From Arachnia rubra (GTDB lineage Bacteria; Actinomycetota; Actinomycetes; Propionibacteriales; Propionibacteriaceae), in NCBI RefSeq assembly GCF_019973735.1, contig NZ_AP024463.1:1612001-1676000 (forward strand): a DNA stretch of 64,000 nucleotides, in the 5' to 3' direction. The position numbers and the translations under genes were made by a program. Shown here in pieces: positions 39,364 through 44,139 of the stretch; positions within the stretch are counted from its first letter, which is position 1, and each line of letters opens with the position of its first letter. The notes below the pieces were generated by a model, which saw only the letters and a program-made list of their open reading frames with translations, was not told where the DNA came from and ran no database searches.

Positions 39364-40899
39364 TCAGCTCGGCGCGTCGCCCCAGAAAGTATTGATCTGC
39401 GCACCGAGCTGGTTGAACCGTCGTGGCAGATCCTCGTATCCCCGGTTGATCACATACACGTCCCGCAGGATGGTGGTGCCGCGGGCAGCCAGGGCCGCTA
39501 GGAACAAGCACACCGAGGGACGGAGCGCCGGCGGGCACTCGATATCGCGGCCACGCCATCTGGTCGGCCCGATGATCATCAGCTTGTGGGCGTCCATGAC
39601 GGTGACGTTGGCGCCCAGGTCACTGAGCTTCTTCAGGTGCACTGCGCGGTTGTCGTAGACCCAGTCGTAGATGATCGACTGACCTTCAGCCGTTGCACAG
39701 ATCAGCGCGAAGAAGGGGAGGTTGTCGATATTCAGTCCTGGGAACGGCATGGGATGGATCTTGTCCAGGGGAGCCACCAGCTCGGATGGTTTCACGGTGA
39801 CATCCACCAGCCGGGTGTGGCCGTTTCCCGATGGGTATTCATTGCTGAGCGCCATCCGCTGTCCCATTTCCTCAAGGACAGCGAACTCCACCTCCAGGAA
39901 TTCGATGGGACAGCGTTTCACGGTCAGCTCTGACTGGGTGACGATCCCAGCGGTGATGAGGCTCATCGCCTCGATCGGGTCCTCCGAGATGTGGTATTCG
40001 ACGTCTTTGCGGATTTCCCTGACCCCATGGATACGCAGGGTGGTGGTGCCGATGCCTTCCACCTCGACGCCCAGCTCACGGAGGAAAAAGCACAGGTCCT
40101 GCACCATGTAGTTTCCCGAGGCATTGCGGATGACCGTCAGGCCGGGAGTCCGGGCAGCTGCCATGATCGCATTCTCGGTGACGGTATCACCACGCTCTAC
40201 CAGAGTGATGTGGTGCTCGGGTGCTCCGTCACGATGCACGGTGGCGTGATACTGGCTGTCGTGCGCCTCCACAGACAAGCCAAGACGCTTCAGCGCTGAC
40301 ATGTGCGGGTGCACTGTGCGGGCCCCGAGATCGCAGCCGCCAGCATACGGGAGTTCAAATGAGTCAAACTCATGCATCAGGGGGCCCAGGAACATCAGAA
40401 TGGAACGTGTGCGACGCGCAGCACGCTGGTCGATGGTCTCCGGGGTGAGCTTCTTGGGACGAATCAATTCAAGGTCCTGACCGCCGTTGGTGGGTGTGAC
40501 GGTCACGCCGATGGACTGGAGGACATCACAGATACGGTCCACCTCCTCGATACTGGCGATCCCGCGCAGCACCGTGCGTCCATGGTTGAGCATTGAGGCA
40601 CAGAGCAGCGCCACAGCAGCATTCTTGGAGGAGCGCACCTCAATCTCGCCCTCAAGCTTCGTTGGCCCGGTGATCTCGAAATTCACGGTGCCTTCGGTCG
40701 CGGCGAGGATCAACGGCATCTCAAGCGCCGCCGCCAGTCTCTCGATCATGTTGAGAGACACGTTTTGCTGACCCATCTCGATCCGGTGGACGGCGGATTG
40801 GGAGGAGTTGATCTCGTCAGCCAGGCGCTGTTGCGACCACTGACGGGCCTTGCGGGCCTCTCTGATCATGATACCGAGGGATTGGCTGGTGGCGGTCAT
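39364..40899 (-). CDS. murA: MurA-type enolpyruvyl transferase with N-terminal HTH (XRE) domain
   Basis: A 511-residue fusion. Residues about 8-68 form an XRE/Cro-type helix-turn-helix (MIREARKARQWSQQRLADEINSSQSAVHRIE). Residues about 73-505 form an EPSP-synthase fold of the MurA family, which adds enolpyruvate to UDP-GlcNAc in peptidoglycan synthesis. Active-site residues appear conserved: Lys92 (SSKNAA), Cys189 (AGGCDLGAR, the fosfomycin-target Cys), an Asp in NIDNLP and an Arg in LRPSVC. So it may be both enzyme and DNA binder. Whether a second, plain murA exists lies outside the window. It is divergent from lpd. Confidence 0.85.
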   Translation of the reverse strand: MTATSQSLGIMIREARKARQWSQQRLADEINSSQSAVHRIEMGQQNVSLNMIERLAAALEMPLILAATEGTVNFEITGPTKLEGEIEVRSSKNAAVALLCASMLNHGRTVLRGIASIEEVDRICDVLQSIGVTVTPTNGGQDLELIRPKKLTPETIDQRAARRTRSILMFLGPLMHEFDSFELPYAGGCDLGARTVHPHMSALKRLGLSVEAHDSQYHATVHRDGAPEHHITLVERGDTVTENAIMAAARTPGLTVIRNASGNYMVQDLCFFLRELGVEVEGIGTTTLRIHGVREIRKDVEYHISEDPIEAMSLITAGIVTQSELTVKRCPIEFLEVEFAVLEEMGQRMALSNEYPSGNGHTRLVDVTVKPSELVAPLDKIHPMPFPGLNIDNLPFFALICATAEGQSIIYDWVYDNRAVHLKKLSDLGANVTVMDAHKLMIIGPTRWRGRDIECPPALRPSVCLFLAALAARGTTILRDVYVINRGYEDLPRRFNQLGAQINTFWGDAPS

Positions 40900-40984: not shown

Positions 40985-42385
40985 ATGACCCACGAATACG
41001 ACGTTTGCGTGCTCGGCGCCGGTCCTGGCGGCTATGTCGCCGCCATCCGTGCCGCCCAGCTCGGCTTGAAGACCTGCATCATCGAGAAACGCTACTGGGG
41101 TGGCGTGTGCCTGAATGTCGGTTGTATCCCGACGAAGTCTCTGCTACGCAACGCCGAACTGGCCCACATCGTCACCCACGAGGCTTCCAGCTTCGGCATC
41201 CAGGGTGACATCACCGTCGACTACAGCAAGGCTTTCTCGCGAAGCCGCCAGGTCTCGGAGCGGATGACCAAGGGTATTCACTTCCTGATGAAGAAGAACA
41301 AGATCAAGGAGATCAGCGGCTGGGGAGCCTTCGTCGATGCCCACACCATCGACGTGGCGGATGACAACGGAGCCACCACTCGGGTCACCTTCGACAACGT
41401 CATCATCGCGACCGGTTCCACCACCAAGATGCTCCCCGGCACCAGCGTCTCGGCCAATGTCGTCACCTATGAGGAGCAGATACTGGCCGACCAGATTCCA
41501 GGCTCCATCATCATCGGCGGTTCCGGGGCCATCGGCACTGAGTTCGCCTATGTGCTGCGCAGCTATGGCGTGGACGTCACCATCGTCGAGTTCTTTGACC
41601 ACATGGTCCCCAACGAGGACGCCGAGATCTCGGCCGAACTGACCAAGGCCTACAAGAAGCTGGGGATCAAGATCCTGACGGCCACCAAGGTGGAATCCAT
41701 CGAGGACACGGGCAACGGTGTGCGCGTCACCGTGAGTCCAGCCAATGGCGGCGACGCTCAGGTCCTGGAGGCCGATCGTTTCCTGTCGGCGGTCGGATTC
41801 GCGCCGCGCACCGAGGGCTATGGTTTGGAGAACACCGGAGTTGCGCTGACGGAACGCGGGGCCATCGCCATCGACGAGAACATGCGCACCAACGTTCCAG
41901 GGATCTACGCCATCGGCGATTGCACGGCAAAGATGATGCTCGCCCACGTGGCGGAAGCCCAGGGCATGGTGGCCGCCGAGACCATAGCTGGAGCCGAGAC
42001 CCATCCTGTCAATTACGACATGATCCCGCGGGCCACCTACTGCCAGCCCCAGATCGCCTCCTTTGGTTATACGGAGCAGCAGGCCAAGGACAAGGGGTAT
42101 GAGGTCAAGGTGGCGAAGTTCCCCTTCGCGGCCAACGGCAAGGCCTGGGGCCTGGGGGAGGGAGTCGGGTTCGTCAAACTCGTCGCCGACGCCCGGTACA
42201 ACGAACTGCTGGGCGCCCACATGATCGGGCCTGACGTCACAGAGCTGCTTCCAGAGTTGGTTCTCGCCCAGAACTACGACCTGACAGCCGACGAGATCGC
42301 AAGAGCTGTGCATGCGCATCCGACACTGTCTGAGGCGATCAAGGAGGCCGCCCATGGGATCGGTGGTCACATGATCAACTTCTGA
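40985..42385 (+). CDS. lpdA: Dihydrolipoyl dehydrogenase
   Basis: The E3 flavoprotein of 2-oxoacid dehydrogenase complexes and the glycine cleavage system. The 466-residue protein has the FAD motif [13 protein letters not shown], the redox disulfide CLNVGC (Cys42 and Cys47), the NAD motif [36 protein letters not shown], and the C-terminal His-Glu pair in [16 protein letters not shown] 40985 was preferred to GTG 40976 by similarity to actinobacterial Lpd N-termini. No E1 or E2 gene is nearby. Confidence 0.96.
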
Positions 42386-42410
42386 TCGCGCATGTCTGAG
42401 AACGGGGCGG

Positions 42411-42424
42411 TACCCTGGGGGGTA
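42411..42424. promoter_or_regulatory. Candidate CsoR-type operator TACCC-TGGG-GGGTA
   Basis: Five-base arms with G/C tracts flanked by TA resemble operators of the CsoR/RcnR/FrmR (DUF156) family, which recognise GC tracts inside AT-edged repeats. It overlaps the -10 box of the gene pair encoding a DUF156 protein, so autorepression is the simplest model. Confidence 0.55.
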
Positions 42425-42428
42425 TAAT
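42423..42428 (+). promoter_or_regulatory. -10 box TATAAT of the microprotein-CsoR operon
   Basis: A perfect TATAAT lies 35 bases before the microprotein ATG and overlaps the candidate operator. The -35 region (about 42400) is poor, which is common for regulated promoters. Confidence 0.6.
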
Positions 42429-42463
42429 TCCAGTCCTGGCCCACCAGAGATTGGAGACCCTCA

Positions 42464-42598
42464 ATGTGCCGTCCCGTTACCTGCGCCACCTGCCACAAGA
42501 TCACTTGGGCGGGATGCGGCCAGCACATTGAGGAGGTCTTCCGAGACGTTCCAGCCGGGCAGCGCTGCACCTGCCCCAGGAAGGACGCAGCACGGTGA
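42464..42598 (+). CDS. Cys-rich 44-residue microprotein
   Basis: A short gene with ATG 42464, preceded by GGAG at seven bases. The protein has six Cys in 44 residues (Cys2, Cys7, Cys10, Cys18, Cys35, Cys37), two His, a TWAGCGQHIEEV segment and a basic end. I recall similar short proteins with MCRPVTCxTC and WAGCGQH in other actinobacteria, but no function. Its stop overlaps the start of the DUF156 regulator (TGATG, or GTGA if GTG is used). Coupling, Cys pattern and a good Shine-Dalgarno argue it is real. A metal- or thiol-binding partner of the regulator is an inference. Confidence 0.7.
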   Translation: MCRPVTCATCHKITWAGCGQHIEEVFRDVPAGQRCTCPRKDAAR

Positions 42599-42861
42599 TG
42601 CGGTTCGACCCGGAGCTGCTGAAACCCTCGGTGCTTCGCCTGAAACGGGCCAGCGGTCAGCTCAACGCGGTGATCCGGATGCTTGAGAGCGGCCGCGAAT
42701 ACGAAGAGGTGATCACTCAGATTGCCGCGGTCTCCAAGGCGATTGACCGCGCAGGTTATTCGATCATCGCACAGGGGATGCGCACCTGCCTGGCCGATGA
42801 CCCGACCGGGGAATCCATCGACACCGGCAAGCTGGAGAGATTGTTCCTGACGCTGTCTTGA
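42598..42861 (+). CDS. CsoR/FrmR-family (DUF156) transcriptional regulator, atypical metal site
   Basis: An 87-residue all-helical repressor of the DUF156 family. LKRASGQLNAVIRMLESGREYEEVITQIAAVSKAIDRAGYSIIAQGMRTCL fits the fold. In copper-sensing CsoR the ligands are Cys, His, Cys; by my alignment the first Cys is replaced (REYEEV) and the His is replaced (AQGMRTC), leaving a single Cys near residue 63. So it probably does not sense Cu(I) in the usual way. GTG 42595 is an alternative start. It is coupled to the Cys-rich microprotein upstream and ends at the stop of the convergent acetyltransferase. Confidence 0.85.
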   Translation: MRFDPELLKPSVLRLKRASGQLNAVIRMLESGREYEEVITQIAAVSKAIDRAGYSIIAQGMRTCLADDPTGESIDTGKLERLFLTLS

Positions 42862-44139
42862 TCAGAAGTGGGTCAAATTGGCTGGCCCGATGGCTGTCGC
42901 GAACAGCTGGGAGAACCCCGCTATCGCATCCTGATCACCCTCAATGGTGCCGGACTGAGCTAGCTGAACGGCCGTTGCATCACCAAGCCAGAGACGTGCC
43001 AGCGCATCCACTCCGAGCTCGACGGTGGGGGAGAGCGCAGTATATCTCGCGGCTCCACGGCCGCCGTCCACGGTTATATGCCAGGTCCCATCGCAGAAAC
43101 CCAAGGGGTCTTTCACCCGGACCACTGCCTCACCGTCTGATTCAAAGCCACGCTCGACAGTGGCCTTCTCCATGTCGAGGATCCGTAGCCACACACCATC
43201 ATGCGTTAACTTCTTCGTGACGGCCCAGGAATCGACGAGCGACTCGGGAAGCGGATCGTCCGGGGAAGCGCTGTTATAGGTGAGCCTCTCCACTATGTCG
43301 AAGCTCGCCAGGCCCCGCCATAGCGCTCGGTCGATCTCCGGGCTGGGGGAGCACACCGCGGTGACCTCGGTGGGAGAGGGGGCCTCCTCCCAGCCCTTGT
43401 GAGAGAATCCTGCGAAACCATCCGGCTGTCCGCTCTCATCGAAGTGCACCAGGTACCGCAGCTTGCGTGAGGGGCCCTGCTCGGCGCTGCTCCAGCTGCC
43501 ATCCGCGTTGGCCCGATGCATCTCCAATGGGCTGAAGGCGCCACGATGAGCCCGCTGATGGGAATTCGAAATGTGTTCGAATATATCCTTGATGAATGGG
43601 GGATCGACGAGCTCCAGGGAGCCCGCGGCAACGGTCGCATCTGGCCGGATGGCGAACCGCCGGATGTCTATCTCCCAGTCGACGATGCGGCTGGCCACCC
43701 CGAAGCCGAAGCGGCCGTAGATCGTTGCCTCGCTGGCCGTCAGCGCCGCCAGGGCCAGCCCGTCCTGCCGGGCCTGCTGCAGATGGTGCTGCATCATGGC
43801 GCGCAGCAAGCCCTTGCGCCGGTGGGTGGGCCGGACTGCGACGACATTCACACACATGGCCTGCACGATGCCAGCACCCGCATTGAGACCGATCGGTGCC
43901 CAGGTGAAACCCGCGACCGGCTGACGTCCCGCGAGGCCAGGGCCTTCTGTGGTGACCATGCCCAAGACCGCGTTGTCCGCACGCCGGTGCTTGCGGAACG
44001 CGGCCAGCGCCTCTGTGGATCCGCGCGCATCAAGAAAGGCGTTGGCGAACAGATCGAGGTAGGAGGCCCACCGTGGGTCATCATCTGGGGTGTCGAGTGG
44101 AAGGGTTTCAAGCTGGTAAGGCGCTATCACCCTGTTCAC
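42862..44139 (-). CDS. eis: Eis-like GNAT N-acetyltransferase
   Basis: A 425-residue protein of the Eis family (enhanced intracellular survival), which acetylates aminoglycosides and protein or polyamine amines in mycobacteria. The first GNAT domain has the acetyl-CoA loop VRPTHRRKGLLRAMM and the catalytic-type Tyr in EATIYGRFGFG. A second GNAT-like and an SCP2-like domain follow. The protein ends in Phe, whose free carboxylate takes part in catalysis in M. tuberculosis Eis. GTG 44139 or GTG 44130 can be the start; the frame is open further upstream but that part lacks family sequence. Its natural substrate is unknown. Confidence 0.88.
   Translation of the reverse strand: MNRVIAPYQLETLPLDTPDDDPRWASYLDLFANAFLDARGSTEALAAFRKHRRADNAVLGMVTTEGPGLAGRQPVAGFTWAPIGLNAGAGIVQAMCVNVVAVRPTHRRKGLLRAMMQHHLQQARQDGLALAALTASEATIYGRFGFGVASRIVDWEIDIRRFAIRPDATVAAGSLELVDPPFIKDIFEHISNSHQRAHRGAFSPLEMHRANADGSWSSAEQGPSRKLRYLVHFDESGQPDGFAGFSHKGWEEAPSPTEVTAVCSPSPEIDRALWRGLASFDIVERLTYNSASPDDPLPESLVDSWAVTKKLTHDGVWLRILDMEKATVERGFESDGEAVVRVKDPLGFCDGTWHITVDGGRGAARYTALSPTVELGVDALARLWLGDATAVQLAQSGTIEGDQDAIAGFSQLFATAIGPANLTHF

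Follow-up and report, generated by a model that had tools for sequence, protein, structure and literature searches.

Genes and features at the locus

The window, as we call the whole 64-kb stretch of Arachnia rubra DNA analyzed here, carries on its forward strand a short unit in which an operator-like site precedes a cysteine-rich microprotein gene and a gene for a DUF156 repressor:

42410..42425, + strand: operator GTACC-CTGGGG-GGTAT (GTACCCTGGGGGGTAT) of the CstR/ScCsoR type, by sequence match
42423..42428, + strand: TATAAT, a -10-like hexamer overlapping the operator, by sequence
42464..42598, + strand: 44-residue Cys-rich microprotein with candidate metal or sulfur ligands C2, C7, C10, C18, H21, C35, and C37
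42595..42598, + strand: stop/start overlap of the microprotein and repressor genes (GTGA/TGATG), by sequence
42595..42861, + strand: DUF156 repressor of CstR-like descent with the triad Tyr36-Gly61-Cys65 (numbered from the GTG start), by PF02583 profile and triad survey
42700..42702, + strand: TAC (Tyr) codon where the other linked copies examined have Cys, by alignment with relatives

The six cysteines of the microprotein lie at residues 2, 7, 10, 18, 35, and 37. The DUF156 open reading frame begins either at GTG 42595, giving a 4-nt GTGA overlap with the microprotein gene, or at ATG 42598 (TGATG), and ends at 42861; its product belongs to PF02583, which it matches with an E value of 6.9e-19 and 68.5 bits (cut-off, 22.8). 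Upstream of the operator lies lpd, encoding dihydrolipoyl dehydrogenase, which ends at 42385, and directly after the DUF156 gene a convergent gene for a GNAT/Eis-like acetyltransferase ends at 42862. The initial annotation had described the operator over a perfect TATAAT, the six-Cys protein, the overlapping repressor start, the end of lpd just before the unit, and the convergent gene after it, and each of these descriptions is confirmed. The congeners we looked at also have lpd just upstream of the pair. We rejected lpd as a member of the operon because the operator and the -10-like hexamer come after it.

The pattern RTACC-N6-GGTAY has a single match in the window, which is GTACCCTGGGGGGTAT (0.04 expected), and the right half of this site runs into the TATAAT. 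A promoter scan returned no σ70 pair at the hexamer, that is, no recognizable -35. A small RNA or riboswitch gained no support, as an Rfam scan of 42300 to 43000 gave no match. From the position of the operator, the unit is predicted to be autoregulated.

Conservation and predicted fold of the microprotein

The reading frame of the microprotein is genuine, as judged from dN/dS and from its invariant residues. Family members are mostly about 40 to 60 residues long. C2, C7, C10, C18, and H21 are present in 100/100 distinct microprotein sequences, although 80 of the 100 loci came from a scan whose pattern included residues K12 to G19, and with them C18, so that the invariance of these residues is in part a product of the search; C2, C7, C10, H21, and C35 lay outside the pattern. 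C35 is absent once among the 100 sequences, from a truncated microprotein (L138). Among five congeners, microprotein dN/dS was 0.06 to 0.17 in 8 of 10 pairs, with the 2 pairs of saturated dS excluded, and dN/dS indicated purifying selection on both the microprotein and the DUF156 frame. The reading frame and cysteine positions are thus kept in relatives, the first of two checks suggested when the locus was initially described.

Toward the C terminus, Cys37 and a Gly-His or Gly-Gln-His (His38) are mutually exclusive in 104/105 copies, with L138 again the exception. Because replacing one another in this manner is how metal ligands behave, we propose that the microprotein probably contains a metal site. 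AlphaFold2, supplied with 64 sequences, predicted with middling confidence (mean pLDDT, 75.5) a strand at residues 3 to 6, a second strand at 13 to 16, and a helix at 19 to 27, a fold that would place the CxxC between the two strands and Cys18 and His21 at the start of the helix.

A known small-protein or zinc-finger identity gained no support from Pfam, NCBIfam, PDB sequences, or Foldseek. The window microprotein matched no Pfam or NCBIfam model up to an E value of 1, no Pfam family matched more than 2 of 64 microprotein members (best E value, 0.01), and the PDB sequence search reached a best E value of 0.065. Foldseek found no significant fold match to the model in the PDB (best E value, 3.7); ten weak hits, several of them titled zinc fingers, all fell short of significance. 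The open-licence literature yielded no description of the microprotein, and an account outside open-licence papers is possible. Within these sources, the microprotein has no assigned function, as had been stated.

Distribution of the microprotein

The microprotein was found in 44/60 relatives and in 32/246 evenly drawn actinomycetotal genomes, and a collection scan with a single short motif confirmed at least 567 relatives, with 80 loci kept. Outside Actinomycetota, the 80 kept loci include one Acidobacteria-labelled metagenome-assembled genome (L120), which is possibly misbinned. By tblastn, 77 of 72,556 plasmid records contained the microprotein. Most of the 40 plasmid matches listed have no annotated gene at the microprotein, the plasmid gene tables being incomplete; one such copy (L246, 5001 to 5111) lies beside an annotated rhodanese and a "metal-sensitive" regulator. 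Records from Microbacterium (a plasmid), Thermocrispum, Cellulosimicrobium, and Microlunatus (L135, L136, L140, and L142) carry identical microprotein and CstR sequences, reflecting either recent transfer or contamination. Two microprotein genes lie within about 4 kb of each other in L119, L128, L137, L211, and L110, and each of those in L128 has an operator.

Linkage to DUF156 repressors and the repressor triad

A DUF156 gene lies within 5 kb of the microprotein in 36/44 microprotein-carrying relatives (36/63 when counted by copies) and within 0.7 kb in 17, compared with about 0.25 of 44 expected by chance on a rough estimate, so that the suggested adjacency check also bore out the pairing. 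Loci that were ranked by their similarity to the window-like alignment (L063 to L142) or picked by hand (L143 to L162, many for closeness of the pair) enter most of the linkage counts, and some loci reach contig ends before 6 kb, making absences there soft. In the only even sample among the linkage loci, drawn across the phylum (L209 to L241), a DUF156 (CstR) gene lies within about 6 kb in 15 of 33 regions, three of which come from one genome (G097). At the level of whole genomes, PF02583 genes accompany the microprotein without excess (25/32, compared with 195/246 overall), and 7 of the 32 microprotein-carrying genomes of the phylum sample lack a PF02583 gene. The lack of a genome-level excess counts against a strict partnership of the two proteins.

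The linked DUF156 proteins are of a distinct kind. A Cys-X-Cys triad (X being Gly, Ala, Ser, or Asn) is present in 70/71 distinct linked sequences, the sole exception being the window copy with Tyr-Gly-Cys, and the copper-type His is absent from the triad in all 71; an earlier survey that counted rows gave Cys-X-Cys in 61/62. All 31 other DUF156 proteins examined, namely the second copy in the A. rubra genome itself and the top 30 PF02583 hits from the search of relatives, have the copper-type Cys-His-Cys.

The window repressor has neither the two-Cys, no-His triad of CstR nor the Cys-His-Cys of copper CsoR. It also departs from FrmR, whose hallmarks are given as Pro2 and Cys35 in the available part of PMC5016687, since its N terminus reads Met-Met-Arg or Met-Arg and a Tyr occupies the Cys position. 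As expected of CstR, an ATACC-N6-GGTAT-like site appears to lie at its own promoter, and none of the sulfur-transfer, oxidation, or export genes expected of a CstR operon lie in its operon. That this regulator is short of metal ligands, as had been noted, is explained by its CstR-like Cys/Cys descent and the further loss of one Cys rather than by a new type of ligand set.

Operators and sulfur genes beside the microprotein in relatives

In relatives, the operator recurs with the pair. RTACC-N6-GGTAY is present in 51/58 linked loci, compared with 1.2 for shuffled sequences and 2 for the reversed pattern, and, within the phylum sample, in 13/15 such loci, where shuffles give 0.25. In most of nine upstream stretches compared, its right half enters a TATA-like stretch. 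The operator also occurs where the repressor gene does not: it lies within 250 bp upstream of 24/39 microproteins whose flanks, as far as examined, contain no CstR. Of the 18 unlinked loci of the phylum sample, however, only 6 contain it at any position.

Frequent neighbors of the microprotein are genes for a coenzyme A-disulfide-reductase (CoADR)/rhodanese, a metallo-beta-lactamase (MBL)/rhodanese, and TauE. Identified on one representative each, these families are a CoADR-like flavoprotein with a rhodanese domain, which scores below the NCBIfam cut-off for a true CoA-disulfide reductase, an MBL-fold protein with a rhodanese domain, and a TauE exporter. "CoADR" labels just upstream of window-clade microproteins are cross-hits to lpd. 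A survey of 134 microprotein places used a stricter threshold. Of these places, 76 lie within 6 kb of CstR, 60 follow an exact operator by no more than 250 bp, and 68 (among them 57 of the 76 CstR-linked places) lie within 3 kb of a gene for CoADR-rhodanese, MBL-rhodanese, or TauE. At least one of these three marks is present at 105 places, and none at 29, of which 17 come from the phylum sample. The operator is the only mark at 18 places.

Because the operator stands before microproteins that have no CstR nearby, some of them without sulfur genes as well, the microprotein itself looks like a regulon gene, one that would serve the response as an effector and not as a subunit of the sensor. The 29 markless places, together with the scarcity of the operator at unlinked loci of the phylum sample and the 7 genomes of that sample that lack a PF02583 gene, make it likely that part of the microprotein family lies outside this regulon and has a second role there. 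Divergent microproteins from other classes of the phylum (L221, L227 to L230, L232 to L235, L237, and L238) lack all three marks at the distances used above (6 kb for CstR, 3 kb for a listed sulfur gene, and 250 bp upstream for the operator) and are possible representatives of such a role.

In the A. rubra genome as a whole, RTACC-N6-GGTAY is not enriched (8 sites, compared with 16 for the reversed pattern), and none of the seven sites other than that of the window precedes a sulfur gene, as judged by eye from a list of longest open reading frames. We therefore rejected a genome-wide regulon in this organism and took only the window site as real. With a count half that of the control, the motif alone proves nothing in this genome; its place does.

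Many microproteins end in a tail resembling FFxRLFGR. By a loose pattern that was chosen after inspection of the sequences and that misses evident tails, such as those of L154 and L156, the tail occurs in 84/112 copies whose locus contains CstR, a listed sulfur gene, or an operator at any position, compared with 8/22 others. In five genomes of the window clade, the tail is missing and no enzyme gene adjoins the pair. The tail may serve in docking and may have disappeared from the window clade along with the enzymes, and the microprotein could be an adaptor that docks or assembles rhodanese-type enzymes through it. Two relatives fit poorly, as G010 and G035 retain the tail without a CoADR-rhodanese gene in the pair, and so do the microproteins at the 18 operator-only places, 16 of which are tailed and stand with no CstR within 6 kb and no listed enzyme within 3 kb. 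We consider an adaptor role rather unlikely.

The operon in the window's sublineage

In the window genome (G000) and in G002, G004, G005, and G018, the order is an lpd-like gene, the operator region, the microprotein gene, and the repressor gene, with the same overlap. The exact operator pattern is present in G000 and G004; in the others, the operator is degraded (G002), has its spacer lengthened to seven bases (G005), or differs in its first base (G018). G010 and G035 share the gene order and encode a longer microprotein, and G024 retains a CoADR-rhodanese gene between the microprotein and repressor genes. Judged by gene order, the operon in this sublineage is reduced to the microprotein and the repressor. 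The view that the unit is self-contained therefore holds for the sublineage of the window and fails elsewhere, where sulfur genes often adjoin the pair or the microprotein stands without a nearby repressor. The rhodanese-fused enzymes were not found at another place either: the A. rubra genome has one 125-codon rhodanese open reading frame, a CoADR-rhodanese fusion was not found in it, and the MBL-rhodanese query produced only two weak partial hits. The draft genome G018 gave no rhodanese hit.

The Tyr at position 36 of the window repressor replaces a residue whose function is known from a homolog. ScCsoR (sco0620) of Streptomyces coelicolor is a sulfane-sulfur sensor that binds ATACCn6GGTAT, and its C37S and C66S mutants bind DNA and are not released by polysulfide, so that both cysteines are needed (PMC7533328, in the part available). 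By analogy with the C37S protein, polysulfide is predicted to be unable to release the Tyr36 repressor of the window in the known way. Tyr36 comes from one genome and may alternatively be a sequencing error or a strain-level change.

A Tyr at the sensing position, a genome in which rhodanese-fused enzymes were not found, and a degraded operator in congener G002 are what would be seen if the window pair were a decaying remnant, on its way out after losing both its enzymes and its sensing Cys. Its sequences speak against this: between G000 and G004, dN/dS is 0.12 for the repressor and 0.17 for the microprotein, and the frames, the overlap, and the operator are intact. Given the value of 0.12, the window repressor is by this measure not visibly decaying, and we think a remnant unlikely.

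The same reduced pair might instead be read as a two-part sensor, as the initial annotation had suggested, with the microprotein binding the repressor and supplying its missing thiol or metal for joint sensing. Such an arrangement would suit a repressor that is down to one Cys of the pair, with both genes under purifying selection, and the stop/start overlap, which has an equivalent in six congener pairs. However, two more distant adjacent pairs that we compared have no overlap, the order and distance of the microprotein and CstR genes vary among linked loci, and all 70 other distinct linked repressor sequences come with a Cys pair of their own. Microproteins that lie apart from CstR, behind an operator without a repressor, or in genomes without a PF02583 gene oppose an obligatory two-part sensor, and we regard joint sensing as quite unlikely.

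Relation to known systems and proposed function

We know of no microprotein that accompanies the CstR of Staphylococcus aureus, and the window copy differs from that protein in retaining one Cys only. Like the relatives of the window repressor, S. aureus CstR is a two-Cys DUF156 repressor that responds to sulfane sulfur (PMC7533328, as far as the accessible text goes). The closest counterpart is the S. coelicolor circuit of four genes, encoding the CsoR-like factor, PDO, a rhodanese, and a sulfite transporter. In the accessible text of PMC7533328, this circuit resembles the relatives of the window in its two-Cys DUF156 protein, its ATACCn6GGTAT operator, its autoregulation, and the PDO, rhodanese, and TauE genes that also lie beside many of these relatives; that text names no microprotein in the circuit, and the window lacks both such enzymes alongside and an equivalent of Cys37. 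TTHA1953 of Thermus thermophilus is a CsoR-family repressor that controls sulfur oxidation and that its authors place nearest to CstR, although its operator (TACNNTACNNNNGTANNGTA) and regulon differ from the type seen in the window (PMC10318464, in the part available). Copper CsoR and RicR have PF02583 in common with the window repressor but carry the Cys-His-Cys triad, as does the additional DUF156 copy encoded in the A. rubra genome.

These comparisons bear on the signal, for which persulfide, aldehydes, and metals had all been suggested. An operon in which a copper, nickel, zinc, or aldehyde sensor is joined by a metallothionein-like partner would accord with the Cys/His swap, which suggests a metal site in the microprotein, and with a public record that names the linked repressor a "metal-sensitive transcriptional regulator," but we judge it very improbable given that the copper-type His is absent from all 71 distinct linked sequences, that sulfur genes are the frequent neighbors, and that the window repressor lacks the XYZ-motif Cys used by CsoR, RcnR, and InrS for metal and by FrmR for formaldehyde (PMC5016687, in its available part). 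Persulfide is the best-supported signal.

We therefore favor, as probable though well short of secure, the reading that the locus is a stripped-down actinobacterial operon for the response to sulfane sulfur (persulfide or polysulfide) with the microprotein as one of the regulon genes. A CstR-like DUF156 repressor would bind an ATACC-N6-GGTAT-type operator over the -10 region and repress its own operon, and sulfane sulfur would modify the repressor cysteines and cause its release, as described for the S. coelicolor homolog. The microprotein would then be made under sulfane-sulfur stress. Its probable metal site would comprise two Cys at the hairpin, a Cys and a His at the start of the helix, and a Cys plus a Cys or His after the helix, and we consider it most likely that its thiolates accept sulfane sulfur or buffer metal set free by such stress. 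In other species, the microprotein may pass sulfur on to rhodanese enzymes whose genes lie next to its own. In the window genome, where rhodanese-fused enzymes were not found and the sensing Cys is a Tyr, the operon is predicted to be held off or to answer another cue, since the known release mechanism should not work with Tyr at that position.

A bolder version of this reading, which we think has only a small chance of being right, is that the microprotein is the first of a new class of sulfane-sulfur handlers, a metal-thiolate mini-domain that would be the smallest sufficient effector of the actinobacterial persulfide response, and that in the window genome it has taken over sensing from a repressor deprived of its sensory Cys, as half of a two-gene split sensor. 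Persulfide-response operons have so far been described through their enzymes, and a conserved microprotein that lies within them, or by itself behind their operator, in many actinobacteria could lead quickly, and in ways open to experiment, to a new sulfur-handling protein. The window copy also provides a natural experiment on whether a repressor of the CstR-like type can function once its sensory cysteine is gone.

Elsewhere in the window, the reverse strand (39364 to 40899) encodes a 511-residue protein in which an N-terminal XRE-type helix-turn-helix is fused to a MurA-like UDP-GlcNAc enolpyruvyl transferase (PF13560/PF01381 and PF00275).
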